Source: Chloroflexota bacterium (GTDB lineage Bacteria; Chloroflexota; Anaerolineae; Anaerolineales; UBA11858). Taken from it: a stretch of DNA of 47,497 nucleotides. A program made the position numbers and the translations under genes. Positions 28,059 to 46,629 of the stretch are shown one piece after another. A model generated the notes under the pieces. That model saw only the letters and a program-made list of their open reading frames with translations. It was not told the DNA's origin and did not search any database. The stretch is from NCBI GenBank assembly GCA_018648225.1, contig JABGRQ010000121.1, positions 1 through 47,497 of the forward strand, read 5' to 3'. How positions within the stretch are numbered: position 1 is the first letter of the stretch; each line of letters begins with the position of its first letter.

Positions 28059-28142
28059 AGTGAACTATGCAGGCTCTGTTAAAGTATGCTTACCTTATTC
28101 AAATAGGCGCATAGCTTCATAAGTTGAAACAGGTAGAAATAT

Positions 28143-28469: not shown

Positions 28470-28505
28470 CAACAGTTATATTAATATCCATACAGGAGTT
28501 TCCAT

Positions 28506-29738: not shown

Positions 29739-29750
29739 AAGGAGCACAAT

Positions 29751-30431
29751 ATGGCTGATGATCTGGCCCTACTTCACCAAAAAATTGACGCGCTGACCGA
29801 ACAGGTCGCTGCGCTGACTTCGTATGCTGTAATTCAACAGAAACGACTGCAGGAATTCGAAGAGCTGAAGAATGATGTCATTCCGATGGTCAATCACATG
29901 ATTAAACTGACCATCGACGAATTGGCAGAGATTGGCACCGAATTCGCGGTAGAAGACCTGTTCTTCCTGCTCAAAAGAGTCATCCGCAACACGCATCTTT
30001 GGCTGGGCATGTTAGACCGCATCGAAGCCCTGATGGGCGTGACGGACGAAGCCGAGTTACTCGGCAAGCAAGTCTTCAATGTGGCCGTCGAACAGCTTGA
30101 CCAATTTGAACGCAATGGTTATTTTGAATTTGCTCGCGAAGGTTGGCGAATTGTCGAGCGCATCGTCACCGATTTTAGCCAGGAAGATGTTCAGGCGCTG
30201 GGCGACAATATTGTGATTATTCTAAACACTGTTCGCAATATGACCCAGCCTGAGATTATGGCTCTGGCAAATAATGCGGTGGGTGCCATCCAGGAAGACA
30301 TTCCTGATCATGGTGAGGTTTCCACCTGGGCATTGCTGCGTGAGCTTGGCAACCCCAAAGTCCGCCGCGGCATGGCACGACTTATCAATTTACTCAAAGC
30401 ACTAGATGCTCAATCCAACACACAAAACTAA
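29751..30431 (+). CDS. DUF1641 domain protein
   Basis: A 226-residue mostly helical protein with an N-terminal coiled-coil region (residues about 5-40, HQKIDALTEQVAALTSYAV) and the DUF1641 core toward the C-terminus (ALLRELGNPKVRRGMARLINLLKAL). DUF1641 proteins are often encoded next to SQR-like flavoproteins and DsrE/TusA genes and are of unknown function; an accessory or anchoring role for the SQR is possible. AAGGAG lies 7 bases before the ATG, 12 bases after the SQR stop. Confidence 0.83.
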   Translation: MADDLALLHQKIDALTEQVAALTSYAVIQQKRLQEFEELKNDVIPMVNHMIKLTIDELAEIGTEFAVEDLFFLLKRVIRNTHLWLGMLDRIEALMGVTDEAELLGKQVFNVAVEQLDQFERNGYFEFAREGWRIVERIVTDFSQEDVQALGDNIVIILNTVRNMTQPEIMALANNAVGAIQEDIPDHGEVSTWALLRELGNPKVRRGMARLINLLKALDAQSNTQN

Positions 30432-30442
30432 AGGAGAAAATT

Positions 30443-30748
30443 ATGTCTGTCTTAGATAATGTTAATATCAACGAAGAAGGTTTCATGACTGATCCAGGTC
30501 AGTGGAGCAAGGAAATTGCTACAGAAATCGCCAAGGGCGAAGGCATTGCGGAACTGACCCCCGAGCATTGGAAAGTCATCGAGTTCTGCCGCGCCACCGC
30601 GGAGGATTCCGGCGCAGCCCCTACATTGCGCCAGATCACCAAAGGGACGGGGATCTCCACAAAAGAACTGTTTGCGCTTTATCCAAAAGGTCCCGCCAAG
30701 AAAGTTGCTAAAGTTTCGGGACTTGGAAAACCTGAAGGCTGTGTATAA
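30443..30748 (+). CDS. DsrC/TusE-family protein with one redox cysteine
   Basis: A 101-residue DsrC/TusE-like protein. The start VNINEEGFMTDPGQWSKEIA and the C-terminal arm GLGKPEGCV are diagnostic. The penultimate Cys100 (CysA) is kept, but the position 11 residues earlier, CysB in DsrC of sulfate reducers, is Ala89 in KKVAKVSG. DsrC with both cysteines forms the trisulfide substrate of DsrMKJOP; single-Cys members (TusE type) act only as sulfur relays. Cys49 (VIEFCRA) is internal. Together with the absence of dsrAB this suggests a sulfur-transfer role. GGAG lies 7 bases before the ATG. Confidence 0.9.
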   Translation: MSVLDNVNINEEGFMTDPGQWSKEIATEIAKGEGIAELTPEHWKVIEFCRATAEDSGAAPTLRQITKGTGISTKELFALYPKGPAKKVAKVSGLGKPEGCV

Positions 30749-30790
30749 CCGCCTAATCAATAGAAATTGCACCATATAAAAGGATTAAAA

Positions 30791-31294
30791 ATGACAAACG
30801 AAAACCGACATATTGCTTTCATCTGCTCAAAAGGTGATCTGGACATGGCCTACCCGGCGTTGGTAATGGGCTGGGCAGCGCTTGGTAATGGCATCGACGT
30901 GACCATTTTCTTCACCTTCTGGGGCATGGATATCATCAACAAGAAACGGCAGAAACGTCTTGAGCTTTCTCCGATTACGAAAACCAGCATGAAAATGAGC
31001 TTGATGGGATTGCCAACTGGAAATCTGGGTATTCCCAATATCCTGAGCATTATACCCGGCATGACTGCGTTTACATCCTGGTTTATGAAGAAAAAGATTG
31101 CCGAAGTGCAGGCCCCCCCGGTTGACGAGTATATCGAAATGCTCGTTGATGGCGGTGCGAATTTGTATGCGTGCAAGATGTCTGTAGATATGTTCGGCCA
31201 GAGCATGGATGATTTCGTTGATGGTGTTCAGGGAATTGTCACCGCGAGCGATTTCATGGATATGACTGAAGGTGCGCAGATCGTCTTTATCTAA
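30791..31294 (+). CDS. DsrE2-like (DsrE/DsrF/DrsH family) sulfur-transfer protein
   Basis: A 167-residue protein of the DsrE2 / peroxiredoxin-like family. HIAFICSKGDLDMAYPALVM carries Cys12, and the conserved second site is Cys128 in NLYACKMSVDMFG. Hydrophobic middle segments (LGNGIDVTIFFTFWGMD; IPNILSIIPGMTAF) suggest membrane association, as in other DsrE2 proteins. DsrE2 passes sulfur to TusA in sulfur oxidisers. AGGA lies about 7 bases before the ATG; an upstream in-frame start has no ribosome site. Last gene of the SQR operon. Confidence 0.85.
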   Translation: MTNENRHIAFICSKGDLDMAYPALVMGWAALGNGIDVTIFFTFWGMDIINKKRQKRLELSPITKTSMKMSLMGLPTGNLGIPNILSIIPGMTAFTSWFMKKKIAEVQAPPVDEYIEMLVDGGANLYACKMSVDMFGQSMDDFVDGVQGIVTASDFMDMTEGAQIVFI

Positions 31295-31649: not shown

Positions 31650-31668
31650 AGTACTACTTTGCTCTTCA

Positions 31669-31704
31669 GCGCCCTGGTGTAAACCAGGGCGCTTTTCTTT
31701 TTAA
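31669..31704 (+). terminator. Terminator after the 56-residue membrane protein
   Basis: GCGCCCTGG and CCAGGGCGC form a perfect 9-bp stem with a TGTAAA loop, followed by TTTTCTTTTT. Confidence 0.9.
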
Positions 31705-31750: not shown

Positions 31751-32704
31751 TTATCCACGATCTGAGCGAGCTGCCTCCCATCTACGTTTTTTTTCTTGGA
31801 ATAATAACTCTTCCACAAAATTGCGGTTATAGCTTACCAATTTGGCAATCACCCCCAGGCTAAAGAGAATACCAGCCAACGAAAATCCGATGGCTGAGAT
31901 AATCAGGGACTGGATATGGCCGCCTTGTCCGTGAAAATAAAATGATAAAAAGCGCACCAAAAGATAAGCAGCTGGAGCCAGAAAAAACAAGGCGGCTGTA
32001 TTAAAGGTTTTAAACGGCTCATGCACAATATAGACCCACAGAATATTATGACTGGAGCGGAAAATATACTGAAAAATATTTTTATATAAACGAGACGACC
32101 GCGTTGGCACGTTGACGTTGATCGGCACCGACAAAATTTGTAATCCCTTTCTGGCTGCCTGCACAAGCGTATCGAGCGTGTATGAAAAGCCAATTGTCGG
32201 TTGCAGCCGCATTAACGCATAGGCTGAGTAAGCGCGAAAACCCGAAATCGTATCGGGAATGGGTGTGTCAATCAGTTGGTTGACAAGAAAATTTCCCACC
32301 CTTTGGAAAAAACGTTTTATAAAGCTGAAATGTTGGAGCGCCCACGGTTTCCGGTTGCCTATGACAATATCGGCCCGGGAATCGAGAATTGGCTGGATAA
32401 GGTCGGGAATATAGGCAGCGGGGTATTGATTGTCGCCGTCTGTATTCACAAAAATATCGCACCCGCTGGATATGGCTGCTTCCACGCCGGTTTTGAAGGC
32501 ATGGCCAAGTCCGCGATTTCGCTTGTGCTGAATGAGTTTTGCACAGTAGCGCCGGGCAATCTCGGCGGTTTTGTCAGTAGAGCCATCATCAATGATTTGC
32601 ACTGTAATTTTCGAGATACCTGGCAATTCCCTGGGGATGCTTTCAAGAACCTGCGGCAAGGTTTGCTCTTCGTTGTGGCAATTGATGTTGATGATCAGTT
32701 TCAT
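31751..32704 (-). CDS. GT2-family glycosyltransferase (dolichol-phosphate sugar synthase-like)
   Basis: A 317-residue GT-A transferase. The start MKLIININCHNEEQTLPQVL and the D-x-D type motif in FVNTDGDNQYPA (near 92-103) are typical, as is QIIDDGSTDKTAEIARRY. C-terminal membrane helices follow (AALFFLAPAAYLLVRFLSFY and LIISAIGFSLAGILFSLGVI). Such proteins transfer a sugar to a polyprenyl phosphate. The ATG at 32704 fits the family start better than a codon 15 bases earlier. It is the last gene of the long minus-strand run from pssA and starts 20 bases after the FGE-like gene. Confidence 0.88.
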   Translation of the reverse strand: MKLIININCHNEEQTLPQVLESIPRELPGISKITVQIIDDGSTDKTAEIARRYCAKLIQHKRNRGLGHAFKTGVEAAISSGCDIFVNTDGDNQYPAAYIPDLIQPILDSRADIVIGNRKPWALQHFSFIKRFFQRVGNFLVNQLIDTPIPDTISGFRAYSAYALMRLQPTIGFSYTLDTLVQAARKGLQILSVPINVNVPTRSSRLYKNIFQYIFRSSHNILWVYIVHEPFKTFNTAALFFLAPAAYLLVRFLSFYFHGQGGHIQSLIISAIGFSLAGILFSLGVIAKLVSYNRNFVEELLFQEKKRRWEAARSDRG

Positions 32705-32723
32705 ATTTCCCGCTAACACCTAA

Positions 32724-34358
32724 TTAGTGCGAAAACTCCAATAAAGCCCATTTTTCCGGCAGAAAATTGAGTTGCTCAGGAAACCCGCCCGGCGTTGGTT
32801 TGATGCAATCATCTTCCAGATTTGCAGGCCAGGGGATTTTTTTAGTGGGATTCGATGCTCTGAGAAAGCTCGCCGCAAGGCGCAGGGGTTGATCTGTAAT
32901 TTCGAGTTGATACTCCAATTCTTCGGGGGTTCCCATACGAGAATTAGCTGCTACCCAACCTTCATCCTGAAGGAAAACGTAACGCTCTGCCCTGGCGGCA
33001 TCACTGCTGCTGGTTTGACGGCATTGCCAATCAAAATCCTGAGCTTGTAGCCAATAATCATCAGCTTGCCGATAGATGGCAGTCCCCAGCGCAGCGGATG
33101 AATGCAGGATCAAAATATCACGATCACGCTGGATAAAAACATTGCCCGCAATCATTTCGGGCGTGTTGGCGCGGATACCCAAATAGAGGTAGCCATCTGC
33201 ATGCATCAAGAATAATTCACTACCATCGGCAAAAGCTTCAATGCGGGCTACATCCCATTCGCCGGAGGTCAAGGTCCCATCCATTACCGGAGCTATACCC
33301 GCTGGCACTGCGATTATATTCGAAACGATGGCTGTATCTGTTTCGGTTTCCTGAGTTTGAGAAGCGGCACAGCGAAAGCCTAAATAATTGAAACGTGTGT
33401 CTGGATTAATGGACGGGCGTAATGCTCCCCGGCAATAGGCCGGGGGAGAAAACCAACTGCATCCTTTCGCGATTTTTTCACTTCCTGCTAATGGGCCAGC
33501 AGGGTTTGTGTCAGCCGCGGGAGAATAATCAGCCAGCCAATCGGACACCCATTCAAATACATTGCCACCCAAATCGAGCACACCCGACCAGCTTACCCCT
33601 TGAGGGTAGCTCCCCACAGGCGCGGTCTGCGAGTATCCATCATCAAAGCGGTAATCTGCATGTAATTCGCTGCAATTGGCATCGCAGTAGTTGAGTTTAG
33701 CGCCATCGAATTCACCGCCTGTCGGGAAGATCACCCCAGCTTCGCCGCGAAACGCATACTCCCATTCGGCTTCGGTCGGCAATCGCGCTCCTGCCCATGT
33801 GCAATATTCCTGCGCTTCATCCCAACTGACGCAAACTACCGGATGTTCAGCTTTGTCCGGGTCGGCATACGTCGGCGCTCCCTTTTTACAGGTCAGCGGT
33901 TCGACACAAATACCAGCATCTACACAAAGCCGATATTGAGCATTGCTGATCTCGGTTTGATCCAGCCAGAACGCATCCAGAGAAACGGGATGCTGAGGGC
34001 CTTCTCTGGCATAATACCAGCGATTGCAAATTGGATAGTGCTCCCGGCATAATGCAAGTGCAGCTTCAATTTCGGCCTCCGTACTGCCCATCTGAAACTC
34101 GCCCGCGGGGATATAACGCATTGGCATTCCATCCGCGGGACGCAGCCATAATTCTTGCGGGGGTATTTGGGCCGCGGCATTGGCTGGCTCATCTTGTAGC
34201 CGAGTGTTGGTGGTATTGATAAATTCATTGCCACCATAGCCCGAAATGGCACACGTAAAACAGGCAGCAACAATCAGGAATGTGAATAGATAGTGAGTTT
34301 TCCGTTTCGCTAAAAGCTCCCGGGATGTTTTTGTGAGAGAGGTCGGTTTTCTATCCAT
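32724..34358 (-). CDS. FGE-sulfatase-like (SUMF1) domain + CBM9-like domain, probable lipoprotein
   Basis: A 544-residue protein. The N-terminus has a hydrophobic stretch ending in a lipobox-like VAAC (Cys33). Residues about 55-335 are a formylglycine-generating-enzyme-like domain (PAGEFQMGSTEAEI, DQTEISNAQYRLCV, ARLPTEAEWEYAFRG, LDLGGNVFEWVSDW, GCSWFSPPAYCRGALR, YLGFRCA). The active-site pair of true FGE is incomplete: the Cys of AYCRGA is present but the one five residues before is Ser. So it is probably not a sulfatase activator. The C-terminal part contains a CBM9/DOMON-like start (APVMDGTLTSGEWDVA). It lies at the tail of the signalling operon, and an extracytoplasmic binding function is a guess. 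Confidence 0.8.
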   Translation of the reverse strand: MDRKPTSLTKTSRELLAKRKTHYLFTFLIVAACFTCAISGYGGNEFINTTNTRLQDEPANAAAQIPPQELWLRPADGMPMRYIPAGEFQMGSTEAEIEAALALCREHYPICNRWYYAREGPQHPVSLDAFWLDQTEISNAQYRLCVDAGICVEPLTCKKGAPTYADPDKAEHPVVCVSWDEAQEYCTWAGARLPTEAEWEYAFRGEAGVIFPTGGEFDGAKLNYCDANCSELHADYRFDDGYSQTAPVGSYPQGVSWSGVLDLGGNVFEWVSDWLADYSPAADTNPAGPLAGSEKIAKGCSWFSPPAYCRGALRPSINPDTRFNYLGFRCAASQTQETETDTAIVSNIIAVPAGIAPVMDGTLTSGEWDVARIEAFADGSELFLMHADGYLYLGIRANTPEMIAGNVFIQRDRDILILHSSAALGTAIYRQADDYWLQAQDFDWQCRQTSSSDAARAERYVFLQDEGWVAANSRMGTPEELEYQLEITDQPLRLAASFLRASNPTKKIPWPANLEDDCIKPTPGGFPEQLNFLPEKWALLEFSH

Positions 34359-34466
34359 AACATATTTGATGAGTGGAAATCCTTAGAGCGTGGCTATCTG
34401 CTTGAGAACCTGTATCAGGCTGTTCGGCTGATCCGTCGGGCGTACTCCCCTCACCGCCAGTAGTCG

Positions 34467-35327
34467 TCAATTTTCCAAGTTTTGCTGTTCTTCTCGCATG
34501 GTGAAAACTTCTGCCTGAGAGATTAAATCTGCCTGGCGAACAGCAATTTCAGCAGCCATATTCAGAAATACTTCGGCCAGTTTTCCCATTTCATCGGTTC
34601 GTTGAGCTATACGGTTAAGTATTTCCGGATCAAAACGTTCTTCTCGCAAAGCGGAAATGGCCGCTGAAATATGAAATATTGGTTGATAAACGCGACTGGA
34701 TACCAACACGACCACAACTAAGCTAATTACAATAAATAACACGAACGCGCCCAGGCCAATTTGCATTAAAACTTGAGCATAACGCACTGCCTCTGCATTG
34801 GCGGCAAGGGTAAGTTCATTATTTAAATCCAGCAATTGACTCGTTTGTGCATACAACGTCTCTGTACTTTGCTGCATACTGCCACGTAGACCGGCATAAA
34901 CCGGGTAATTAATATTCTCTCTGCCTTTCTCATTTTCCGATAGCGTCTTTGCATAAAGCTGGTCATAATTTTCTTTTTCCAGGAGAAGGCTTTCCAATAT
35001 CTGTTGCTCTTGCGGCAAAGTTGAAGCGATATATTCGCGCGCCAAAAAAGAATCCAGGAGGGCATTGTATTCTTCGAAGGTACTTTGTCCATTCTCGTCG
35101 AAACGATCTAACAAAGCTCGTTGGGAAAGATCCATTTTCTGCAAATAGGTTTCGGCCTGGTAGGCGGCTTCGAGTTTCTCGATTTGCAGAAACATATTCT
35201 GGGTTTCTTGCTGCATTTGTAATAAATACAAAATAGACACACTAATAGCCAACGCGCTGACGATTGCCACAATACCATTAAGGATAAACAACCAGGATTG
35301 CAAGTTTGTGCGCCGCTTATTCTTCAT
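34467..35327 (-). CDS. HAMP-domain membrane sensor without output domain
   Basis: A 286-residue protein with an MCP/kinase-like sensor layout. TM1 (about 14-36, LNGIVAIVSALAISVSILYLL), an extracytoplasmic helical bundle (about 37-185), TM2 (about 187-215, LGAFVLFIVISLVVVVLVSS) and a HAMP-like segment (YQPIFHISAAISALREERFD ... DEMGKLAEVFLNMAAEI) end in a short coiled coil. There is no kinase, cyclase or methyl-accepting domain. The ATG at 35327 has GGAGAG 4 bases upstream and overlaps the previous gene by 11 bases. The HAMP resembles those of the next gene and the cyclase. It may form hetero-oligomers with them, which is inference. Confidence 0.78.
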   Translation of the reverse strand: MKNKRRTNLQSWLFILNGIVAIVSALAISVSILYLLQMQQETQNMFLQIEKLEAAYQAETYLQKMDLSQRALLDRFDENGQSTFEEYNALLDSFLAREYIASTLPQEQQILESLLLEKENYDQLYAKTLSENEKGRENINYPVYAGLRGSMQQSTETLYAQTSQLLDLNNELTLAANAEAVRYAQVLMQIGLGAFVLFIVISLVVVVLVSSRVYQPIFHISAAISALREERFDPEILNRIAQRTDEMGKLAEVFLNMAAEIAVRQADLISQAEVFTMREEQQNLEN

Positions 35328-36378
35328 CTTGCTCTCCACGAAAACTCTCTTCAAGAACTTGATGCGTGAAATTTAATTTTTGGCGTCGTTCTTGCCGTTC
35401 TTTCTCTTGTAATACGGTTACTTCTTGTTGTAATTGTGTTTCTTTTGATATCACTTCACGAGCGAAGACATCAAATTCACGCGCCGCGCGCCCTAACCGA
35501 TCTTTGCGTGAAATCACATCAGATATTAATCCGGGGCGATATTGATTGCCCTGCAATGCAACCACAGCATTAATCAGAGCCAGAATGGGCGCAGTGATCC
35601 GCCCGGTTTTTATGAACACCCCGGTCGTTATCAACGCCAAAAATACCAGGCTGGCTACACCGATTAAGACCGCATTTTGCACACTTATAATACTTTCTTG
35701 AAGAGCCTGATGTAATTCTCTTTCAAGACCCAGTTTTATGGCGTTTATTTGTTCCTGGATTTGTTGTTTCTGTAATGCAGTAGTGTCAAGAAGCCCCATA
35801 AACTCAGATAAGAACTGGGGTTCAACCAAATTCTCGAACAAAGTTTGACGGTCTGGAGATTTATTCAATAATGATTCAATCGCACTGGATAATTGGCTGA
35901 AAGTCAATGTATAGCTATCATGCAGGGTTAATAACTGCTCGAGATGTTCCGGTTTTGTAGCCGGATGGTTCACCAGGTATTCAAGCTCGCTGGCTAATAA
36001 TTGGCTAAATTCCTGGACTGTCAGCAGTTGCTGACAGATTTGGCTGACTTCATCGATTTCGATTTGTCTTTCATAAACTGGGTCCTCATACGACAGATTT
36101 GTCAGCGCGCTACAAATATGCGCTGAATTTTGCTCAAAATTCCCTATTTCGGCCTTAAAAGAATCTGAGAAAAATTCGATGTCTTGATTATATTCTTCCG
36201 GAAAAATAGTGGGAGTTGGCGTTGGATCATCGCCATTTTGCCCCGCTGTAAGAAACCTGTCCGTTGGAAAATTGGCCGCATGGATTGGCGGCAGCAAGAC
36301 GCTGCCAAAACTAGCAACCCCTATCGTAAGGAGAGCTGCTAGCGTCCATTTTGCAAAACGATTTTCGCGAAACAACAT
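35317..36378 (-). CDS. Second HAMP-type membrane protein without output domain
   Basis: A 353-residue protein. A signal-like N-terminus (WTLAALLTIGVASFGSVLLP then HA|A) leads to a Pro/Thr-rich stretch (DDPTPTPTIFPEE), a helical extracytoplasmic region with Cys about 88 and 114, a TM helix (about 238-262, VLIGVASLVFLALITTGVFI), a HAMP-like segment (ITAPILALINAVVALQGNQYRP ... DRLGRAAREFDVFAREV) and a charged coiled coil. No catalytic output domain. GGAG lies 6 bases upstream of the ATG. It belongs to the same paralogous set as the HAMP protein downstream and the cyclase upstream. Confidence 0.76.
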   Translation of the reverse strand: MLFRENRFAKWTLAALLTIGVASFGSVLLPPIHAANFPTDRFLTAGQNGDDPTPTPTIFPEEYNQDIEFFSDSFKAEIGNFEQNSAHICSALTNLSYEDPVYERQIEIDEVSQICQQLLTVQEFSQLLASELEYLVNHPATKPEHLEQLLTLHDSYTLTFSQLSSAIESLLNKSPDRQTLFENLVEPQFLSEFMGLLDTTALQKQQIQEQINAIKLGLERELHQALQESIISVQNAVLIGVASLVFLALITTGVFIKTGRITAPILALINAVVALQGNQYRPGLISDVISRKDRLGRAAREFDVFAREVISKETQLQQEVTVLQEKERQERRQKLNFTHQVLEESFRGEQDEE

Positions 36379-36422
36379 TAATTACTCCATCTAGCCCAAG
36401 ATGAATTCTTTCCTAATGATCA

Positions 36423-37316
36423 CTAAAAATCGGGCAATCCACCACCCGGATCAGGAATCTCAACCGGTAGGTCTTCCACATCTGGTAAATCTTCCATATC
36501 TGGCAAATCTTCGAAACCCGGCAGGTCGATTCCATCCCCTCCTGAGGAGCCAGATGCTGATCCAGCGCCGGCGTTCAGCGCTTCCTCCAACATCCGTTGT
36601 GCCTTTGCTTCCAGTGCCACCAATTTCTCGAAATTTTCTTCGGTAAATTGTTCAGATAATACCAGTGAGCATCCAGACGAATCGGGATACACTTCGCAGT
36701 AATCTTGCACACGTTCATAGCCAGCCACCAACTCTGCGCAACCCGGCGATTGAGGATATTCATCACAGTAATCCAGAGGGCTGCCATAACCGGATAAGAG
36801 TTGTTCGCAGCCCGGTGATCCGGGATATGCATCACAATAGGCATAAAGATTATCATAACCCAGCAATATTTCTGAACAGCCAAGCATATCAGGGTTTTCT
36901 GTGCAATAATTTTGCGCGCTATCGTATGAAACTCCCGCCATAACCAGGAGATTCCCCATGTCATCCCCAGCATCGGCAGCGATCCAATTTTCTTGCAGTG
37001 CCGCCAGACAAGCCGCATCCTGACAATCAGCGACGGCCTGCAACCAGGCATCCAATTCGTCACGGTTGCCAAAAGGCGTATTCGCCAACAATACACCAAC
37101 CACGGCTTCCTCGGCTAATTGCTGTCCCAGCAGGCTAGATTCCACGGACGCAAATAACTTAATTTCGTCAGTTAGTTCGAAAATACGCTCTACAGACTGG
37201 TTAAAATCATAAATTCGGTATACCGACCAAGACAACAACAAAACACACAAGGTCAGAAACATACCAAAAGCCCCCAAGGAAAAAAGCGATTGAAATGCGT
37301 ACCCGATTTTTTTCAT
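36423..37316 (-). CDS. Membrane-anchored protein with four 23-residue Cys repeats
   Basis: A 297-residue protein with one N-terminal membrane helix (about 12-34, FSLGAFGMFLTLCVLLLSW). Residues 131-222 are four consecutive 23-residue units (131-153, 154-176, 177-199, 200-222). Each has Tyr at 1, Cys at 8, Pro at 12 and Gly-Cys at 16-17 (for example YCDAYPGSPGC). The eight cysteines could form one disulfide per repeat outside the cell. The C-terminus is Gly/Ser-rich and then an acidic DLP repeat (FEDLPDMEDLPDVEDLP). I know no matching family. The ATG at 37316 is preferred over a TTG three codons earlier. It starts 10 bases after the cyclase stop, so it is cotranscribed with it. Confidence 0.75.
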   Translation of the reverse strand: MKKIGYAFQSLFSLGAFGMFLTLCVLLLSWSVYRIYDFNQSVERIFELTDEIKLFASVESSLLGQQLAEEAVVGVLLANTPFGNRDELDAWLQAVADCQDAACLAALQENWIAADAGDDMGNLLVMAGVSYDSAQNYCTENPDMLGCSEILLGYDNLYAYCDAYPGSPGCEQLLSGYGSPLDYCDEYPQSPGCAELVAGYERVQDYCEVYPDSSGCSLVLSEQFTEENFEKLVALEAKAQRMLEEALNAGAGSASGSSGGDGIDLPGFEDLPDMEDLPDVEDLPVEIPDPGGGLPDF

Positions 37317-37326
37317 GATACCCAAC

Positions 37327-38994
37327 TCACTTTTGTGTCATTATTTCTACGCCTTGCCAGCCATCCGGCGCACCCTTTTTAGCCATATCCCGCGAGCGCT
37401 GCTGATAATACGCAGCCGCCTTATCTTCAGGATGAATTTGCAGAACTGCCTCAAAATTTTGGCGCGCTTTTGAAAAATCTCCGGCGATATAATCGCCTAG
37501 TCCACGCTCAAACAAATCCAGAAATTCAATCTTCAGCGAAAATAAATTGGGAGGATCGCCGTCAAACAGCTCATACAAGGTCAACGGCAGAAGTTTGCCC
37601 TTCACCTGGGCCTTACCCAAAAGACGAGACCGATAATATAAGCGATCAGCAACTTGCGATAGCGCTTCTTCCGTGACGATGAGTGAAACACCATAGAATT
37701 TCGTCAGCCCTTCAACCCGTGCTGTCAGGTTGATACTGTCTGAAAAAGCATCCCCCTGCATCCGGCGCGCTTCGCCAACGATACCCACCATCATACCGCC
37801 GCTATGGATGCCAATCCCAACCGAAATGGGCGGTTGCTGATTCGCAAGGCGTTTCGCATTATATATATTCAACAATTTCTGCTTGGCGATTCCCGCCAGA
37901 ATAGCATCATCCACCCCATAGGGGAAGATTGCCATCATGCCATCCCCCAGAAATTTGACCACAAAGCCATGATGCTCTTTAATCAACGGGCTGACCAACA
38001 TCAGATATTCATTCACAAAATCAAAATTCTCTTGCGGGGTCATTTTCTCAGACATAGTTGTGAAAGAACGAATATCGGAAAACATAATCGCCATTTCAGC
38101 GCTAATATGATCACCCAGGTTCATTTCGGTAATGTCACTTTTGTCCAGAAACTCCAGAAATTCGGTAGGCACAAAGCGATTGGCGGCGTCCAAAAAGCGT
38201 TCTTTTTCTTCGACAGAGCGCGTTATCGAGCCCGCCATACTCTGTATTGCGCGTGCCAATTGCCCCATTTCATTTTCACCACGGACATATTCACCCAACA
38301 AATCATCCTGATAAGCATTATTTTCGAAAGAAACGACAGCATTGGTCAAATAAAGCAGCGGTTCGGCGATCTGATTCAAAATAATGGCAGCAAAAACAGA
38401 GAATATGGATATTAACAACATCCCCACAATATTTCCAATAATGGTGTGCTGAACTTGCTGGTCTATTTGAACACTCTCAGCCCGAAGAGAAACCTGACCT
38501 GCAAAAACCATGGTATCAAACTGCGACAAAACCGCCGACGCATTTTTGTCGGCGGTGGGCATTATGAAAGCAACCTTTTCAATATCCCGCACCTGCCAGG
38601 ATTTAAACATTTTTAATGCCGCATCATTATATGCACCTAATGCCGTCTGAAGATACTGTAAATCTTCTTGCGTTTCCCCTGCGCCTGCTTGCAGCAACAG
38701 ATAATCCATATCCTGACTGATCTGTGCATAGCTGACTGAATAGCTCACGCGCAGGTTTTTATCATTTGTAAGTAAATAATTTTTTAGATCCACAACCGAC
38801 TGTTGAAAAAGCAATCGGCTCGCTTCAAGTCTGGAAATTTGTTCGTTGTTTGTTCGAATTTCTTTCGTTTGGTTATTGATTTGAATCAGATAATAGATAT
38901 TCCACCCAGCGAGGGCCAAACCAATCATCACAATACAAATCATGATAACCATTAAATTATTTTTTACTTTCAAACGACTCAGAAAGTTCAACAC
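37327..38994 (-). CDS. Membrane-bound class III adenylate cyclase with HAMP domain
   Basis: A 555-residue protein with TM1 near 14-36, an extracytoplasmic 4-helix-bundle sensor, TM2 near 185-206, a HAMP segment (about 211-265) and a class III cyclase domain (about 290-470). Catalytic residues are complete: metal-binding Asp307 (MFSDIRSF) and Asp351 (FLGDGMMAIF), adenine-contacting Lys347 (VVKF) and Asp415 (QGDAFSD), transition-state Asn422 and Arg426 (SINLTARVE). The Lys/Asp pair predicts ATP rather than GTP as substrate, so the product should be cAMP. A short TPR-like C-terminus follows. The GTG at 38994 has AGGAG 8 bases upstream. It lies directly downstream of two genes whose products carry cyclic-nucleotide-binding domains. 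Confidence 0.92.
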   Translation of the reverse strand: MLNFLSRLKVKNNLMVIMICIVMIGLALAGWNIYYLIQINNQTKEIRTNNEQISRLEASRLLFQQSVVDLKNYLLTNDKNLRVSYSVSYAQISQDMDYLLLQAGAGETQEDLQYLQTALGAYNDAALKMFKSWQVRDIEKVAFIMPTADKNASAVLSQFDTMVFAGQVSLRAESVQIDQQVQHTIIGNIVGMLLISIFSVFAAIILNQIAEPLLYLTNAVVSFENNAYQDDLLGEYVRGENEMGQLARAIQSMAGSITRSVEEKERFLDAANRFVPTEFLEFLDKSDITEMNLGDHISAEMAIMFSDIRSFTTMSEKMTPQENFDFVNEYLMLVSPLIKEHHGFVVKFLGDGMMAIFPYGVDDAILAGIAKQKLLNIYNAKRLANQQPPISVGIGIHSGGMMVGIVGEARRMQGDAFSDSINLTARVEGLTKFYGVSLIVTEEALSQVADRLYYRSRLLGKAQVKGKLLPLTLYELFDGDPPNLFSLKIEFLDLFERGLGDYIAGDFSKARQNFEAVLQIHPEDKAAAYYQQRSRDMAKKGAPDGWQGVEIMTQK

Positions 38995-39056
38995 TTTAGA
39001 ATCTCCTAGAGCTTGCACGATTGCAATCGTAGATACCCCACACCCTTGTCTTGGGA

Positions 39057-42000
39057 TTATTCCTCATCGATCATACCGCGCATTTTTTGAGAAAGCACCT
39101 GGATAACACCACGAGCAATTTCAGAACGAGTATCTACGGCTTCGTAGAATGGATCATGATCCAAACACAACAGGCGGGTATCTTCACTTGCCGTGATCGA
39201 AGCAGACCTGGGGGCCGGATCCAGGAGCGCCATTTCGCCGAATACATCACGGTCGCTGAGTTCATTCAATGTGCGATCCCCATCATGCACACGCACTTTG
39301 CCGGCAACGATAATATACATGCTGTCACCCGGATCGCCCTTTTCGAAGATCACCTGCCCGGCAGCAACATCCCTTTCTTCCAGATAAACAGCCAGTTCTG
39401 CCAGTAAATCATCCGGCGTTTCAGCAAAAATACTCACCGTTTTCAGGATCAGCACTTTTTCAATTGTCAGCATCATGGGGAAATCTCCATCAACCGTATT
39501 ATGTCTACACAACACGCCCTGAGCGGTTTGGCGCACTATCTCTTCCGGATGCTGCCGAGCAGATTCAAGAATTGTATTGGCAGCTTCAGGAGCCAGTTGC
39601 GGAAGCGCGTAGAGCACGCAGGCCGCTAACCAGTTATTCTTCAATTGGCTATTATCTTGCGTATATAAAGCGCGTAGCTGTTCCGCTATCCCACTCGCAG
39701 GAGCAGAAAAATGTTTCGCCAGGTCTGCTATTGTTTGTGCGGTAATCATTGGTACCAGGCGATCGCGCAATCTCCGATCCTGGGAGAGAATCACATCCAA
39801 CACTTCGGTGGCATTGGCGCGCTTGTCTTTTTGTTCGGATAAAAGATTCGTCTGCACGCGCAGGATGTCTTGTGCGTCGTACACCAGGGCCAGCAAATTG
39901 AAGATGCGCACACGCCCGCGCGCGCGCATTTGAGTCAGGATGCCGCTCAATGGCTGAACTGCATGGGAGAGTTGGTTCGGCAACTCAATGGACATCTGAA
40001 CGAGTTGGCCTAGCGCTGCAATTTCAGCATCTACCTGCTCAAAAATAGCAGGACGCATCTCTGGTTCAGCCCGGTAGTGATTGCGCGCCAATACGTGCAA
40101 GACTTCGCTGCGCACGCGCTCGCGCGGAGTAGCGATCAACGTTTGTAGAATCGGATTCACGCGCGGGCCGCCGATCTGACCACATATACGGATCAAGTCA
40201 TGGGTCACGGGCGCAGCATCCACCTGATGGAGTTTATCGGCAATCACAGGCAACGCGCTTTCGCCTCCAGCGATCAGCGCCTTGCGCGCCTCGGAGCGTG
40301 TATCCGCCGAGTGAAGCGCATCCAGTACCAACGGCCAGAGCTGCGCATGATGGACGTTTTGGCAAGCCCGCAAGGCTTCCTGTCGAACGATGATCTCCGA
40401 GTCGTTGAGTAATGATAGTAGATTTCGATGGAATCCAACATTACCAACGGCGCCAATAACCCGCGCAGCAAAACAACGCATTTCCGGAGATGAGTCGTTC
40501 TGCGCCGCGGACAAAATATCACCGGCTGCGAGAATGACTTCAAGCGAATGACTTTGTAACGCGCCCACCACCCCCGCGAAACGGAGTTCAATATTGGAAT
40601 CCGATAAATACGCTGGCAATATTTGCGCGGCGGATTCCCCCATACTGGCGAGGCGTTGCAAAGCTGCTGCGCGTACTTCGATGGGTTGCAATACGTCTTG
40701 AGCTAACACTTCCAACCAGGGCAACGCATCCTCATTCTGAGATGTAAGCTGCTGAACAGCTGTCAGACGTACCGCTGCGTTAGCATGGGTCAACAAATGG
40801 GGCAAGGCGTTCACCAAAATTGCCGGGTCGTTTTGTGCCAGCATCTCGATGGCAAATAGAATATCCCTGGGATTTTCGCTTTGGAGATGTTTTTCCAGTG
40901 CGGCCAGACCAGCGCTTTCAGCAAAAATATCAACTTCACTGCCATCCAAATAGCGCCTGTCGAGCGCATTTTGCAGCGCACCGTAATATTGCCGCCCCAA
41001 TAGAATGCCCATCAACAACCAGCCCACCAGAATGACCGCCAGAATATAAACCGCCTGCAACGGCGTCAGATTCCACAGTGCCGTGAATAGCAGTAATAGT
41101 CCGCCTGAAATGCCCATCGAAAGCGGGGCGACAACCGACTCGACTGTAGTTTGCACGCGCGAACGCGCATGCTGCGGCAGCGGCTGGTACATAATGCGCA
41201 CCGAGGTATTATTCATCGCCACCACACTGACTTCATCCGACATTTTGGTAGCCACCACCACCCAAAAGATGATCCCCGCCATATCGGGAAAATTCGAGAG
41301 CAGAATCACCCCCAGAGTTCCCAGCGCCACCAGAATGGGGTCTACCAGCAAACCACCACGCACACCAAAACGCCTAAAAAATCGGTTCGAGATTAACAGC
41401 AGGACAACGAGCGTCACCAGCGTGCTAACCCCCATATAGCTCCCAAAAAACTTGCTCAGTTGATCGGCATCCGTCAGTTTTGCGCCAGCCTGCCCGATAA
41501 AAGCATAATCCAGCACATACGTACCGATAGTAGATAATATGGTGAACAGAAATATGAACCAGACATAGCGATCTCGGAAAATGGGCTTCCCCCGCGGTTG
41601 GTCGGGCTTGGATATTGTCTTTGACTCCGCTTCAGGCAACGCCAGCGCAGCTTTAAAGCGGCGCGTCGTCACCACCAACAGCCAGAACGCAGCCAGCAAA
41701 CTGGCCGACGTAACCCATAACAGATTGGGAGTCCCAAACCAGCGAATCAGGCTGCTATTTAAAAAGCCAACCAAAATAATCGAGAGTACGCCTCCGGCCA
41801 TAATCAATGAGAACAGCCGCTTACCCTGCCGGCTGGTGAACAAACGCCCGGCGAGCGTCCACAGCCCGAGGTTGCCCAGTACCCATAACACTCGCACCCA
41901 CACCAACATAAAAAAGTAAATCCAGTGCGCGCTCGACCATGCTAAAAGTAGGCGCAGCGCTGTAATCATGAGGAACATCAATCCCAGGTTGCCAATCAGC

Positions 42001-42284
42001 AAAGTAGAAAAAGGCAAGCTGGATTGTAGCCGCAGGAAAATTAGCCCGGCAGAGATGATGATCGCCGCGGCAATCATATACACATAAGGCAGTTTTTGGG
42101 CACTAAAGTGAGAAAGGAATAAAGCGTTGGCGCTGCTGTAATAGGTAATCAACGCAATGCCGAGGAAAAAAGACTGGCCAAATAACAGCGAGAAAGCAAC
42201 CCCCTCGCCATCGTGAATACCCGCGCCGCGCACCAAACGTTGCCAGAAGCCCGGCTGCCGGGTGATCGTTTCTGTCTGTATCAT
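39057..42284 (-). CDS. ADP/ATP-carrier-like (MFS-type) membrane protein with HEAT repeats and a cyclic-nucleotide-binding domain
   Basis: A 1075-residue fusion. Residues about 20-430 form some 12 membrane helices that resemble the bacterial nucleotide transporter (Npt/Tlc) and MFS group (EGVAFSLLFGQSFFLGIALI; GKRLFSLIMAGGVLSIILVG). Residues about 450-900 are helical HEAT-like repeats (for example VRLTAVQQLTSQNEDALPWL, EIVRQEALRACQNVHHAQLW). A CRP/PKA-type cyclic-nucleotide-binding domain fills about 930-1070, with an intact phosphate-binding cassette VFGEMALLDPAPRSASI including its Glu and Arg. It may be a transporter or translocase-derived sensor gated by cAMP. The ATG overlaps the phospholipase stop (ATGA), so the two are translationally coupled. 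Confidence 0.85.
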   Translation of the reverse strand: MIQTETITRQPGFWQRLVRGAGIHDGEGVAFSLLFGQSFFLGIALITYYSSANALFLSHFSAQKLPYVYMIAAAIIISAGLIFLRLQSSLPFSTLLIGNLGLMFLMITALRLLLAWSSAHWIYFFMLVWVRVLWVLGNLGLWTLAGRLFTSRQGKRLFSLIMAGGVLSIILVGFLNSSLIRWFGTPNLLWVTSASLLAAFWLLVVTTRRFKAALALPEAESKTISKPDQPRGKPIFRDRYVWFIFLFTILSTIGTYVLDYAFIGQAGAKLTDADQLSKFFGSYMGVSTLVTLVVLLLISNRFFRRFGVRGGLLVDPILVALGTLGVILLSNFPDMAGIIFWVVVATKMSDEVSVVAMNNTSVRIMYQPLPQHARSRVQTTVESVVAPLSMGISGGLLLLFTALWNLTPLQAVYILAVILVGWLLMGILLGRQYYGALQNALDRRYLDGSEVDIFAESAGLAALEKHLQSENPRDILFAIEMLAQNDPAILVNALPHLLTHANAAVRLTAVQQLTSQNEDALPWLEVLAQDVLQPIEVRAAALQRLASMGESAAQILPAYLSDSNIELRFAGVVGALQSHSLEVILAAGDILSAAQNDSSPEMRCFAARVIGAVGNVGFHRNLLSLLNDSEIIVRQEALRACQNVHHAQLWPLVLDALHSADTRSEARKALIAGGESALPVIADKLHQVDAAPVTHDLIRICGQIGGPRVNPILQTLIATPRERVRSEVLHVLARNHYRAEPEMRPAIFEQVDAEIAALGQLVQMSIELPNQLSHAVQPLSGILTQMRARGRVRIFNLLALVYDAQDILRVQTNLLSEQKDKRANATEVLDVILSQDRRLRDRLVPMITAQTIADLAKHFSAPASGIAEQLRALYTQDNSQLKNNWLAACVLYALPQLAPEAANTILESARQHPEEIVRQTAQGVLCRHNTVDGDFPMMLTIEKVLILKTVSIFAETPDDLLAELAVYLEERDVAAGQVIFEKGDPGDSMYIIVAGKVRVHDGDRTLNELSDRDVFGEMALLDPAPRSASITASEDTRLLCLDHDPFYEAVDTRSEIARGVIQVLSQKMRGMIDEE

Positions 42285-44503
42285 AGTTGATCCTGCCATT
42301 CATCGAGGGCTTTTTTCCCGGCCTGATAGCCCAACTCGATAAGCTGGTCAATATTATCAAACTGAAAAATATTGACCCCCTCCACATCGGGGCGAATGAT
42401 ATAGTCGGTGATGGCATATTGTTTGTGCTTCTGACGCACACTGCTGAACTCGTTGATTCGCATAATCAGGTTCATAATCCCAGGTAGATGTGGCTGCGCT
42501 TGCCGACCTCGGAGAGGGTTCAGTTTTCTCCAAAACATTGGCCACCCCGACAGGCCAGGATCAAAATCGTAACCTTCCGGCAGGGCCGATTCGCTGCTGA
42601 CATCTACGCCAATAATCGTACAGTCGGCGCAAATCTTACGCATGACTTCGAGCGGCAAATTATTGACCAACACCCCATCAACCAGTAAATCGCCTTCATC
42701 AGTCATCGGCGGGAAGAAGGGCGACAAAGCGCTGCTGGCACGGATATATTTCCACAACGGACCGCGCCTGTGAATGACCTGCCGCGCCCTGGTTAGATTA
42801 GCAGAAACACAGAAATACTCAATCCAGGTATCTTCAATCTTTTGGCTGCCAAAGAGGTCTTTCAGCAAGGCGATTAACGATTTCCCAGAAATTAGGGAAA
42901 CAGCCGGGAATGTATAGTCGAGCAGTTTTTTGTCTTTCAACCCATTTTTCGTCAACTTGCCAATCTGACGCCAATTCATGCCCAGCGCGAAAGCGGCGGC
43001 GATAATCGAGCCAATGCTGTTGCCGCCAACCATATCAATCTCCAGACCAGCTTCTTCGATGGCGCGTAGCACGCCAATGTGAGCAAAACCGCGCGCGCCG
43101 CCGCCGCCTAAAACTAACCCAATGGATTTCCCTGCCAAAATGCGCGCTACACGCTGATAGTCGGCATTATGGTGTGTGCGAAGATGATAGTGACGGCGAA
43201 TATCGCCAATCTGTTCCAGCCAGTGATCAGTGCCCGACGGCTTCGGTTTCAATTCATCATAGAGTAAAACAAGCTCTTTGTGAATAGTGCTATTGTCATA
43301 ATCGGGCATCATGGCGCGCAGGAATTCGGCGTTGAATTCGGTACCCGAATGGCCGATGAAGATCACGCGGTCGGCGCGCTGGATGCAACGGGATGTCCAG
43401 TTCGAGGGGGTAGAATCCACCTCGTAAATGCTGCTAATGCCCGAGTGTCGTTTCTCTTGCTCGTCCAGCCAAGTGACCAACCTGATTTCGTTCAGGTCAT
43501 CCCTCGGGGTTTGGGAAATCCCAACTTGTTGCAATACATCATCCACCGAAGCGCTGCTAAAGTGTAACGTGTGCAAATATTGGGAAATAAGTTCGGTCAA
43601 TCGGTTGGCGAAATCCGCCAGAAGAATATCGGGGCTGAGCGGCACCAGGGCAATGCACAGCGACATAGAGGGGGTTTTGTCAATCAACGTGCGATGCAAG
43701 CGGGTGATAACCTGCTTGGTAAACTGAAATGTAGATTGGGGCAATTCGCACTGGACGGCGTAAAAACTCTCGCGTGAAAATCGAACCGCATCTGTATCTC
43801 GCAGCGCAATTATGTTAGCCGATCTCGGCTCGCCGGTAAAAAAACCCATCTCGCCTACATTTTCTCCGGCCAATATATCACCAACGATTTGTTCATTGCC
43901 ATCCTGATCCGGGATACTTACCTGAACTCGACCGTTGATAAGAATACAAAAATCATCACTGGGATCTTGATAGCGCATCAGCGCCTGCTCCCGTTTCAGG
44001 TGTACCCATTCAATTTCATTTTCAATGGCCCCCATTTGCGCCAGGCTTAATTCGCCAAAATAATTCGGCAGGATTCTAAAGAGTTGATTACGTCGCTGGC
44101 GCTGGCGAATTACTGCGCCCAGCAAGGATAATATCTGTGGTGTCTCTGCTGCAAGTCGATCAAATTCGGATTTTGACAGGAATAAAAGCTGAGTATCGTC
44201 TAAAGCCATAACATTGGCTGTGCGTGCCTGACCTGTCAGCAACTGGATCTCCCCCACCGATTCTCCTGGCCCAATTTTTCCCACAATTATTTTTTCGTCA
44301 TCTTCCCCACAAATAGATACTTGTAATTCTCCCGCGATTACGATATATAAACCGCTGTTCCGGGTTTCGCCCTGCCGGAATAAATATTCATCAGCCTGGA
44401 TAGAGAATCTCGCAACCAGCTTAGCTGTTTTTTGCACAATCTGACGATCAAATGAAGAAAACAATTCAGTGGATGTCAGAAATGCAGCCAGATGTTCATC
44501 CAT
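42281..44503 (-). CDS. Patatin-like phospholipase with two cyclic-nucleotide-binding domains (NTE-like)
   Basis: A 740-residue protein with the order CNB1 (about 10-130), CNB2 (about 145-265), a linker region (about 280-455) and a patatin domain (about 460-660), the layout of neuropathy-target-esterase relatives. Both phosphate-binding cassettes keep Glu and Arg (SVGEIQLLTGQARTA with E85/R94; NVGEMGFFTGEPRSA with E218/R227). The patatin domain has the oxyanion loop GGGGARGFAHIG, the nucleophile Ser496 in GGNSIGS and Asp609 in VDGVLVNN as the dyad. It should hydrolyse phospholipids under cyclic-nucleotide control. The ATG at 44503 overlaps the pssA end by 8 bases; longer in-frame starts would lie inside pssA and are less likely. 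Confidence 0.9.
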   Translation of the reverse strand: MDEHLAAFLTSTELFSSFDRQIVQKTAKLVARFSIQADEYLFRQGETRNSGLYIVIAGELQVSICGEDDEKIIVGKIGPGESVGEIQLLTGQARTANVMALDDTQLLFLSKSEFDRLAAETPQILSLLGAVIRQRQRRNQLFRILPNYFGELSLAQMGAIENEIEWVHLKREQALMRYQDPSDDFCILINGRVQVSIPDQDGNEQIVGDILAGENVGEMGFFTGEPRSANIIALRDTDAVRFSRESFYAVQCELPQSTFQFTKQVITRLHRTLIDKTPSMSLCIALVPLSPDILLADFANRLTELISQYLHTLHFSSASVDDVLQQVGISQTPRDDLNEIRLVTWLDEQEKRHSGISSIYEVDSTPSNWTSRCIQRADRVIFIGHSGTEFNAEFLRAMMPDYDNSTIHKELVLLYDELKPKPSGTDHWLEQIGDIRRHYHLRTHHNADYQRVARILAGKSIGLVLGGGGARGFAHIGVLRAIEEAGLEIDMVGGNSIGSIIAAAFALGMNWRQIGKLTKNGLKDKKLLDYTFPAVSLISGKSLIALLKDLFGSQKIEDTWIEYFCVSANLTRARQVIHRRGPLWKYIRASSALSPFFPPMTDEGDLLVDGVLVNNLPLEVMRKICADCTIIGVDVSSESALPEGYDFDPGLSGWPMFWRKLNPLRGRQAQPHLPGIMNLIMRINEFSSVRQKHKQYAITDYIIRPDVEGVNIFQFDNIDQLIELGYQAGKKALDEWQDQL

Positions 44504-45254
44504 CTTGCATCCGTTCATATACGTTTGTCGTGCGCCGGAAAAGAGCGTAGACGATGTGTGCATAAATATAAATCGCGCAAACAAAAATAAAAAATATTGC
44601 CAGCGCCGCTCCAAAAGATTTTAGAAAAATATAGACGAGTACCCCCGCTATAATTGAAATTACAAATTGTATGATTATGCCCCGTATTCCCCAACGATAA
44701 AATATGATCTTGCTGCGTATCATTAAGTAGGCATGAAAGAATGCGAATAATAAAACAAGGACTAAAACAAAAGGCGTATATAATTTTTCTGGATAAAAAT
44801 TCACCAGGGACATCACGGCCACATTGAATCCAGCCGGGGGTGCAATCCCAAGCCCGACAAAGCCTTGGCTGCGCTCTCGGTCACTTTGGGAGGTAATAAA
44901 ACGCGTTTCGCGCAACAACCCTGCAGTGGTATAGCCAATCCCCGCAATCCAGGCTGCGCTGCTCAGGATCAGGCTTTCACCTGGAGCCAACTGATAAAAC
45001 AGGTACAACCCAACCCCAGGCAAAACGGCAAAAGAAACGACATCGGCAAGCATGTCAATGGCGCCCCCAATCTCGCTTTTTACATTCAGTTTGGATGCAA
45101 CCATACCATCAACAGCGTCAAAAATAACGGCCAAAAACATCCACCACATACCCTGAACAAATTTTTCATCAACCAGGAGCATCATTGCCACAAAACCACA
45201 AGCGACGTTTGTGAATGTTAAGAAATTGGGGATGTGGTTTTTGATTGAATTCAT
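44496..45254 (-). CDS. pssA: CDP-alcohol phosphatidyltransferase (phosphatidylserine synthase-like)
   Basis: A 252-residue polytopic membrane enzyme of the CDP-alcohol phosphatidyltransferase family. The start NHIPNFLTFTNVACGFVAMM and the motif FDAVDGMVASKLNVKSEIGG (D-x2-D-G-x2-A... with Ser where Arg is usual), then AIDMLADVVSF, give the metal/CDP-binding site. It resembles PssA, which makes phosphatidylserine from CDP-diacylglycerol and serine. The A-R to A-S change weakens the assignment of substrate. It is the first gene of the minus-strand run and overlaps the phospholipase gene, so synthesis and turnover of phospholipid are coded together. Confidence 0.85.
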   Translation of the reverse strand: MNSIKNHIPNFLTFTNVACGFVAMMLLVDEKFVQGMWWMFLAVIFDAVDGMVASKLNVKSEIGGAIDMLADVVSFAVLPGVGLYLFYQLAPGESLILSSAAWIAGIGYTTAGLLRETRFITSQSDRERSQGFVGLGIAPPAGFNVAVMSLVNFYPEKLYTPFVLVLVLLFAFFHAYLMIRSKIIFYRWGIRGIIIQFVISIIAGVLVYIFLKSFGAALAIFFIFVCAIYIYAHIVYALFRRTTNVYERMQDG

Positions 45255-45372: not shown

Positions 45373-45453
45373 TACGATATTCGCACTTTGGGAATTATAT
45401 CACGCATGGTTGGTTGATTGTGTTTAAAAAGACGGGATGCCCACGGAACAACA

Positions 45454-45900
45454 ATGACTGAGAGTATTTTCTTTCAGTATGGTTATGCCGGACTTTTCGC
45501 GGTTAGTTTCCTTTCGGCCACATTATTACCATTGGCCTCAGAGGCTTTTGTAGCTTTGATGCCGGGCGCGGGCTATAACATTTGGTGGGTGTTGATCTTT
45601 GCTACAGTCGGAAACTTTCTGGGGTCGTTGACAAATTACTTTATCGGCAAATGGGGCAGCAATTTTGTACTGGCGCGCTTCGTCCGCACCGATGAAAAGA
45701 AAATGCAACGCGCCAAGGAACTTTTTAACCGCTGGGGCACGCCGGTATTATTCTTCTCCTGGATTCCAATCATCGGGGATCCGTTAACTGTTGTGGGTGG
45801 CATTATGGATATTCGCCTCACCACGTTTACTCTTTGGGTGCTTTCCGGAAAAGTGTTGCGTTATCTGATTATATTGAGTTTAGTTCAGTTTGTTGTGTAA
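45454..45900 (+). CDS. YqaA/DedA-family (VTT-domain) membrane protein
   Basis: A 148-residue membrane protein. It has the SNARE-associated/VTT-type pattern of the YqaA branch: LSATLLPLASEAFVALMPG, VGNFLGSLTNYFIGKWG, a charged loop (FVRTDEKKMQRAKELFNRWG) and FFSWIPIIGDPLTVVGGIM. Members are thought to move lipids or solutes across the inner membrane. The ATG at 45454 fits the family; an upstream TTG-type start would add 12 unlikely residues. Divergent from pssA, so it may share membrane-lipid regulation. Confidence 0.83.
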   Translation: MTESIFFQYGYAGLFAVSFLSATLLPLASEAFVALMPGAGYNIWWVLIFATVGNFLGSLTNYFIGKWGSNFVLARFVRTDEKKMQRAKELFNRWGTPVLFFSWIPIIGDPLTVVGGIMDIRLTTFTLWVLSGKVLRYLIILSLVQFVV

Positions 45901-45975
45901 AAGGTTTACTATCATCGCATCCCCGGCAGATTCCACTGTCGGCGAAATGCGCATAGTACTGACAGGGAGATACAA

Positions 45976-46629
45976 ATGGAATTCATTAATATCCCAACCG
46001 AACAGACAACTGCAGCAACGAACGCTGTCATTGTCGTATTTATGCTAGCCTTTATTGCGTATTTCCGGCGCTTTGGCAATAAAGATCGCTGGAAGGTCAA
46101 TCTCTGGCTGTGGGCGGCTGGTTTGCAATGTGTGGCAGTTTTTTTTGGGGTCATTGTTCATGGCGTCAAATTGGCGGATACGACAAAATTCATCCTCTGG
46201 CAGCCGATCTATTTTTCGCTGGGCTTGCTGGTGGCGATCTTTGTTGTGGCGGCAATCTATGATGTTTGGGGGCAATCCGCCGCTCGGCGGATGCTGCCAA
46301 TCATGCTTGTCATCGGCGTGGCTTTTTTTGGAGTTACCCTGATCTGGACCAATAGTTTTCTTGTGTTTGTCATTTACCAGGCCGCAGCCATGCTTTTTGC
46401 CTTGGGAGGTTATATCTGGCTGGCATCTAAAAAACGCCTTGAGGGTGCCTGGTGGATGGCAGCAGGGATATTGACATCCATTGTCGCCTCTGGAATACAG
46501 GCCAGTAAAGCCGTGTCTTTCACCTTCATTTGGCCCTTTGACCATAACGGCACTTTCCATCTCATTCTAATCGTTGGTTTTCTCTTCCTGACGATTGGAT
46601 TACGAAGCGCATTTCTTGCTGATGAGTAG
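45976..46629 (+). CDS. Polytopic membrane protein, unknown function
   Basis: A 217-residue protein with about seven hydrophobic segments (for example NAVIVVFMLAFIAYFRRFG, WLWAAGLQCVAVFFGVIVHG, FSLGLLVAIFVVAAIYDVW, FVIYQAAAMLFALGGYIWL). The C-terminal PFDHNGTFHLILIVG has the His pair of CREST-type membrane hydrolases (ceramidase/PAQR-like), and VHG at about 62 supplies another His. That is only a resemblance. GGGAG lies 7-8 bases before the ATG. The gap to the previous gene (75 bases) contains a weak dyad but no terminator. Confidence 0.68.
   Translation: MEFINIPTEQTTAATNAVIVVFMLAFIAYFRRFGNKDRWKVNLWLWAAGLQCVAVFFGVIVHGVKLADTTKFILWQPIYFSLGLLVAIFVVAAIYDVWGQSAARRMLPIMLVIGVAFFGVTLIWTNSFLVFVIYQAAAMLFALGGYIWLASKKRLEGAWWMAAGILTSIVASGIQASKAVSFTFIWPFDHNGTFHLILIVGFLFLTIGLRSAFLADE

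Follow-up and report, generated by a model that had tools for sequence, protein, structure and literature searches.

The question raised by this locus is whether a membrane-bound cyclase and two proteins with cyclic-nucleotide-binding (CNB) domains, encoded side by side in a Chloroflexota bacterium, form a signalling module run by cyclic AMP (cAMP). The genes lie on contig JABGRQ010000121.1 (assembly GCA_018648225.1), whose 47,497 nt were analysed whole and are called the window below; coordinates are positions in the window, and all nine genes are on the minus strand. The run of nine minus-strand genes with overlaps or short gaps described by the initial annotation was found again, as nine consecutive open reading frames (ORFs) between 31751 and 45254 with gaps of 1 to 108 bp. 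Searched gene by gene, Pfam returned CDP-OH_P_transf; two cNMP_binding, NTE_Ploop and Patatin; MFS-like, HEAT and cNMP_binding; Guanylate_cyc; three ORFs of no family; FGE-sulfatase; and GT2. Our preferred answer, with a probability of about 0.55, is that the genes of the run are expressed together as an envelope module driven by cAMP, in which the cyclase and two CNB-gated proteins would tune phospholipid turnover and nucleotide transport. Its core consists of four genes:

44496..45254, minus strand: CDP-alcohol phosphatidyltransferase (PssA or archaetidylserine-synthase-like), first gene of the run; PF01066, 6e-14
42281..44503, minus strand: NTE (neuropathy target esterase)-type phospholipase (patatin), 740 aa; Pfam two cNMP_binding, NTE_Ploop and Patatin
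39057..42299, minus strand: NTT (ATP/ADP-carrier fold)-HEAT-CNB protein, 1080 aa; Pfam MFS-like, HEAT_2 and cNMP_binding, profile and fold matches to NTTs
37327..39018, minus strand: membrane class III adenylate cyclase; PF00211, 6e-19, a weak TarH match and two transmembrane segments (TMs)

These four genes are tightly joined. The patatin gene had been listed with a TTG start at 44614, which is probably too early; an ATG at 44503, overlapping the stop of pssA, is the better choice. The patatin and NTT genes overlap by about 19 bp, and 38 bp separate the NTT gene from the cyclase gene.

The cyclase and the two CNB proteins

The cyclase is laid out as a TM, a periplasmic helical region, a second TM, a HAMP-like segment and the cyclase domain. 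Enzymes of this class are expected to have a pair of metal Asp, an adenine Lys with Asp or Thr, and Asn/Arg. All of these are present, D315 with D359 for the metal, K355 with D423 for adenine, and the N430/R434 pair, so that the initial annotation was right to call the enzyme complete. Fold and residues together point to cAMP as the probable product. CyaC/CyaB-type membrane class III cyclases have the same metal, adenine and Asn/Arg residues; unlike these, the present cyclase is clustered with two HAMP-like relatives that have no output domain, g3 and g4 (see below).

In the phospholipase, CNB domains, the NTE_Ploop domain and a patatin domain with GxSxG and the DG dyad are found in one chain. 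Both CNB domains were intact, as the initial annotation had claimed, with Glu/Arg pairs E85/R94 in CNB1 and E218/R227 in CNB2, and the active site comprises the oxyanion R471, the catalytic S496 and D609. Among 70 NTE-type relatives, the oxyanion Arg and the catalytic Ser were kept in 70/70 and the catalytic Asp in 69/70. For CNB2, counted over relatives with a residue at the position, Glu was found in 64/65 and Arg in 51/66, while CNB1 is present in fewer relatives and is more variable. An AlphaFold2 model (predicted local distance difference test, pLDDT, 81.5; predicted template modelling score, pTM, 0.78) matched regulatory subunits of protein kinase A (PKA) with its tandem CNB and PlpD with its patatin part, and the protein is predicted to have (lyso)phospholipase activity. 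It shares with the NTE/PNPLA6/Swiss-cheese family and bacterial CNB-patatin relatives (PF24179 plus PF01734) the combination of CNB, NTE P-loop and patatin in one chain with the dyad intact, but differs from NTE/PNPLA6 in being bacterial, in having two CNB domains where that family has three, and in the adenylate cyclase and NTT-HEAT-CNB genes alongside. Control of NTE enzymes by cAMP has already been put forward and is still unproven; in HeLa cells, raised cAMP led to a higher level and activity of NTE (PMC9025805).

The third protein combines an NTT/MFS-type membrane domain, HEAT repeats and a C-terminal CNB (E1022, R1031), in that order. The initial annotation had called it Npt-like with HEAT repeats and one CNB; the last two parts were confirmed, and the transporter part could be placed more precisely. 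A profile search with the membrane domain matched AtNTT1 (1e-17) and Chlamydia pneumoniae NTT1 (1e-16), and the best fold matches of the model, 9j3n and 9j3l, are the C. pneumoniae and Arabidopsis ATP/ADP translocators. Because fold and profile both point to the same two translocators, we consider this an NTT-family protein and not merely an MFS-like one. The model has a pLDDT of 82.3 and a pTM of 0.52, a low value, and therefore gives no reliable mutual placement of the three domains. The invariant K160 aligns with a Lys in both solved NTTs, and across 24 proteins the CNB Glu is invariant and the Arg is kept in at least 90%. An exchange activity of the ATP/ADP type is putative for this protein. 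Fusions of the NTT-HEAT-cNBD type have already been published, with the proposal that cAMP from adenylate cyclase regulates them (PMC5381601). Their three-part architecture is the same as that found here, and the difference is one of context, the present gene having a cyclase gene 38 bp downstream and a CNB-phospholipase gene directly upstream.

Searches of open-licence papers gave no account of a cyclase, an NTE-patatin and an NTT-HEAT-CNB protein in one operon, and nothing direct on bacterial CNB-patatins with cyclases. The operon is a new combination within known cAMP-CNB signalling.

The remaining genes and the borders of the run

The first gene had been named pssA. Its membership of the CDP-alcohol phosphatidyltransferase family holds, whereas the specific name does not: the NCBIfam pssA score is 70.5 against a cut-off of 107, and the nearest NCBIfam models all scored under their cut-offs, so that pssA is used here as a family-level name only. 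In the CDP-alcohol phosphotransferase motif, a Ser replaces the usual Arg (DGMVAS), in the window protein and in its counterpart in the congener G005 (see next section). Below the cyclase gene, the run and its end comprise:

36423..37325, minus strand: g5, one-TM protein of no family, with four Cys-pair repeats
35317..36378, minus strand: g4, TM, helical region, TM, HAMP-like segment and coiled coil, without output domain
34467..35354, minus strand: g3, TM, helical region, TM and HAMP-like segment, without output domain
32724..34358, minus strand: FGE-sulfatase (SUMF1-like) domain protein; PF03781, 3e-50, one N-terminal hydrophobic segment
31751..32719, minus strand: GT2 glycosyltransferase, last gene of the run; PF00535, 8e-25, two C-terminal hydrophobic segments
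31668..31693, no strand assigned: strong stem-loop with an 11-bp stem and a T-tract on the plus strand, where it resembles an intrinsic terminator

Here too the genes follow each other closely, with gaps of 1 bp between cyclase and g5, 44 bp between g5 and g4, 108 bp between g3 and the FGE gene and 4 bp between the FGE and GT2 genes; g4 and g3 overlap. Promoter-like matches are present inside the run, and are no evidence for separate units. Judged from the arrangement of the genes, all nine are probably transcribed as one unit. The stem-loop stands just beyond the GT2 gene, between this run and the sulfur-metabolism genes converging on it, and is possibly the shared end of both units.

With phmmer, g4 matched the N-terminal half of the cyclase (3.7e-9) and g3 matched g4 (1.5e-9), E-values which, coming from a four-sequence database, are indicative only; g3 also resembles the cyclase. 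When relatives of g3, g4 and g5 were sought in 60 related genomes, none was recognised and the matches were limited to HAMP regions; a search for the three elsewhere in G005 gave no match. The repeats of g5 are about 21 residues long, each with paired cysteines.

Outside the run, the converging genes on the opposite strand (19766-31294) form a cluster of Fe-S/FAD oxidoreductase, Sulf_transp, DsrC and DsrE genes. Upstream of pssA, divergent DedA (VTT) and DUF6962 genes (45418-46629) are also kept in G005.

Conservation and cyclase neighbours

Full-length phospholipase and NTT protein were found together in 2 of the 7 genomes of the genus, the other five being 80-94% complete. The order pssA-patatin-NTT-cyclase is kept in one further congener, G005 (2/7 in total), where divergent DUF6962 and DedA genes are followed by pssA, patatin, NTT and cyclase, the two effectors showing 79-85% identity. 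Beyond G000 and G005, the three-gene combination, for which the initial annotation had suggested a conservation test, was not found in 400 genomes of the order and 400 of the phylum. In the order sample, full or near-full NTE-patatins were found in 16/400 genomes and NTT-HEAT-type relatives in 26/400, and in the phylum sample NTE-patatins in 4/400; CNB-NTE-patatins are widespread across other phyla. Patatin-NTT pairs recur in another family, in G053 (L044) and G028 (L046), and family-level searches centred on G053 and G033 gave no additional loci. Two other arrangements were seen at patatin loci: in G053, a SulP-STAS-CNB transporter gene stands 365 bp upstream of a second CNB-NTE-patatin (L043:2819-5161, minus strand), and in G458 a CNB-containing gene (455 aa) is directly upstream of a CNB-NTE-patatin (L255:8781-12217, minus strand).

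Cyclase genes were then counted around 70 NTE-patatin loci, a modest sample put together after the window had been seen. The flanks at 0-2 kb, 244 kb in all, contained 7 cyclases; those at 2-10 kb, about 730 kb, contained 3, the window's own among them. The one-sided binomial probability for this difference in density is 0.004, or 0.01 without L102; both values are given because the L102 "cyclase" is doubtful (no Guanylate_cyc by Pfam, FHA-type matches only). Seventeen further loci from the same scan, L162-L178, mostly plain patatins without CNB, gave no cyclase match. Linkage of patatin and cyclase is a minority pattern, about 10% of NTE-patatin loci having a cyclase within 2 kb. The sensor architectures of the neighbouring cyclases are unrelated to each other (Fer2-cyclase-Rieske, zinc-ribbon, TPR, AAA-TPR, CHASE2 and one plain). 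In L042, L111 and L118 both genes are on one strand, with the cyclase behind the patatin and less than 200 bp away, and in L213 and L160 the genes are convergent. The product of several of these cyclases is uncertain, because canonical residues deviate: in L042 the adenine Lys is replaced by Asn, and L118 and L160 deviate at the Asn position.

In L042:4437-5753 (minus strand, G053), the gene directly adjoining a CNB-NTE-patatin encodes a fusion of Fer2, class III cyclase and Rieske domains, with Asn replacing the adenine-selecting Lys; it is a possible redox-sensing cyclase. In L066:319-7375 (plus strand), a gene for a cyclase-AAA-TPR protein (1242 aa) precedes an NTT-HEAT gene by 25 bp, and a free-standing CNB gene comes after the latter.

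A proposed cAMP module and the alternatives

The mechanism that we propose for the envelope module runs as follows. With its two-TM helical/HAMP-like region, the membrane cyclase would register the state of the membrane or of the extracytoplasmic side, and would make cAMP. This would bind the CNB domains of both effectors, the tandem in the phospholipase and the single one in the NTT-HEAT protein, where binding signatures are present. Binding would relieve or alter phospholipid/lysophospholipid hydrolysis and nucleotide (ATP/ADP-type) exchange and, with a phospholipid head-group synthase alongside, membrane lipid turnover could be matched to the envelope or energy state. The cyclase-like g3 and g4 might conceivably modulate the cyclase, and g5, FGE and GT2 might belong to the envelope feature being sensed or built. 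We infer the direction of regulation, the lipid substrate, the transported nucleotide and the roles of g3 to g5, FGE and GT2. A more specific version, a dedicated envelope-stress circuit in which the catalytic cyclase shares a membrane sensor layer with g3 and g4, is tuned by mixed assembly and jointly gates the phospholipase and the ATP/ADP-carrier-type protein through cAMP, seems rather improbable.

Several observations weigh against the module. A cyclase within 2 kb is missing from about 90% of NTE-patatin loci and from almost every NTT-HEAT-CNB locus. The synteny of the core genes is known from two genomes only, and the g3-to-GT2 half is not comparable in the second, because the G005 contig ends inside the cyclase gene. 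The genome contains six PF00211 cyclases and 16 CNB matches overall, and the five other cyclases could feed the same effectors. CNB domains can moreover bind other ligands or none. Finally, the esterase activity of human NTE was unchanged by cAMP in vitro, and its binding of cAMP is unproven (PMC9319352). The initial annotation had read the locus as a candidate system and had held that this view fails if the effectors occur without the cyclase as a rule. This is largely what was found, and the claim of a dedicated, conserved system is weakened, since neither effector family usually has a cyclase gene next to it. The missing neighbour does not exclude cAMP control, as cAMP is diffusible and the genome has further cyclases and CNB proteins; because of these further proteins, the module probably belongs to a shared cAMP network and is not a closed circuit.

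These counts of cyclases and CNB matches, the solitary effectors and the synteny in just 2 of 7 congeners would suit a looser arrangement, in which the CNB proteins follow the global cAMP pool of all cyclases and the membrane-related genes of the operon came together recently, in this lineage only, with no private circuit. Order and tight junctions have nevertheless been kept at 79-85% identity, and patatin-NTT and patatin-cyclase neighbours recur in other genomes, so that we hold this arrangement possible, at well under even odds. It is unlikely that the CNB domains have a structural role or a different ligand, in the manner of the nucleoside-binding kinetoplastid PKA regulatory subunits (PKA-R), with the cyclase serving other targets. 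The phospholipase model does match cAMP-independent Trypanosoma PKA-R proteins too, and the human enzyme, as said, has no shown cAMP binding, but each of the three CNB domains here has the Glu and the Arg of the phosphate-binding cassette; the nucleoside-binding PKA-R forms have lost them.

A defence role, raised by the initial annotation along with a link to defence islands, fared worst. In a scheme like Pycsar (pyrimidine cyclase system for anti-phage resistance) or CBASS (cyclic oligonucleotide-based anti-phage signalling system), infection would raise a cyclic nucleotide and the patatin would kill the cell through membrane damage. At the domain level the patatin does resemble CBASS phospholipases, and the CNB domains PycTIR. 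The PADLOC matches are all partial, however, being limited to the catalytic domain or to CNB/patatin segments; the cyclase residues are adenylate-type, and the patatin belongs to a family that carries the NTE P-loop domain and occurs in many phyla. PADLOC recognised no defence system among the operon and ten other window proteins, and the flanking genes are housekeeping or sulfur-metabolism genes (FtsH, TsaD, SelA, glycosyl transferases, Fe-S and sulfur-transfer proteins). We regard this reading as very improbable.

Individual known systems were also compared. Pycsar makes cCMP or cUMP for effectors such as PycTIR (PMC9117128), and the likeness lies in a class III-related cyclase with a cyclic-nucleotide-gated effector; here the residues are adenylate-type and the effectors are an NTE-type patatin and an NTT. 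PycC matches cover the catalytic domain only, the residues having been judged without alignment to PycC-specific ones, and the PycTIR matches are CNB segments with no TIR domain, so that no TIR or TM anti-phage partner was identified. For CBASS, Pfam and PADLOC gave no CD-NTase match in the operon, and CBASS_lipase reached 40.7 bits where its cut-off is 200. A further comparison is with a neighbourhood of Mycobacterium tuberculosis that includes Rv2565, presumably a CNB-patatin. There, a cyclase-like gene (Rv2561) is close to the CNB genes Rv2564 and Rv2565, as in the window, and a functional association has been predicted (PMC4886424); the M. tuberculosis cyclase-like protein is divergent and reported as cytosolic, and no NTT-HEAT-CNB protein is reported.

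The value of the operon lies mainly in a natural genetic linkage that bears on the cAMP response of NTE-family CNB domains. Two questions are concerned: whether cyclic nucleotides control the NTE-family phospholipases, to which the human disease protein PNPLA6 belongs, and what the CNB does in NTT-HEAT-cNBD proteins (PMC5381601). Together with the scattered patatin-cyclase neighbours, the operon offers tractable soluble domains for testing both CNB questions, in NTE and in NTT-HEAT proteins.

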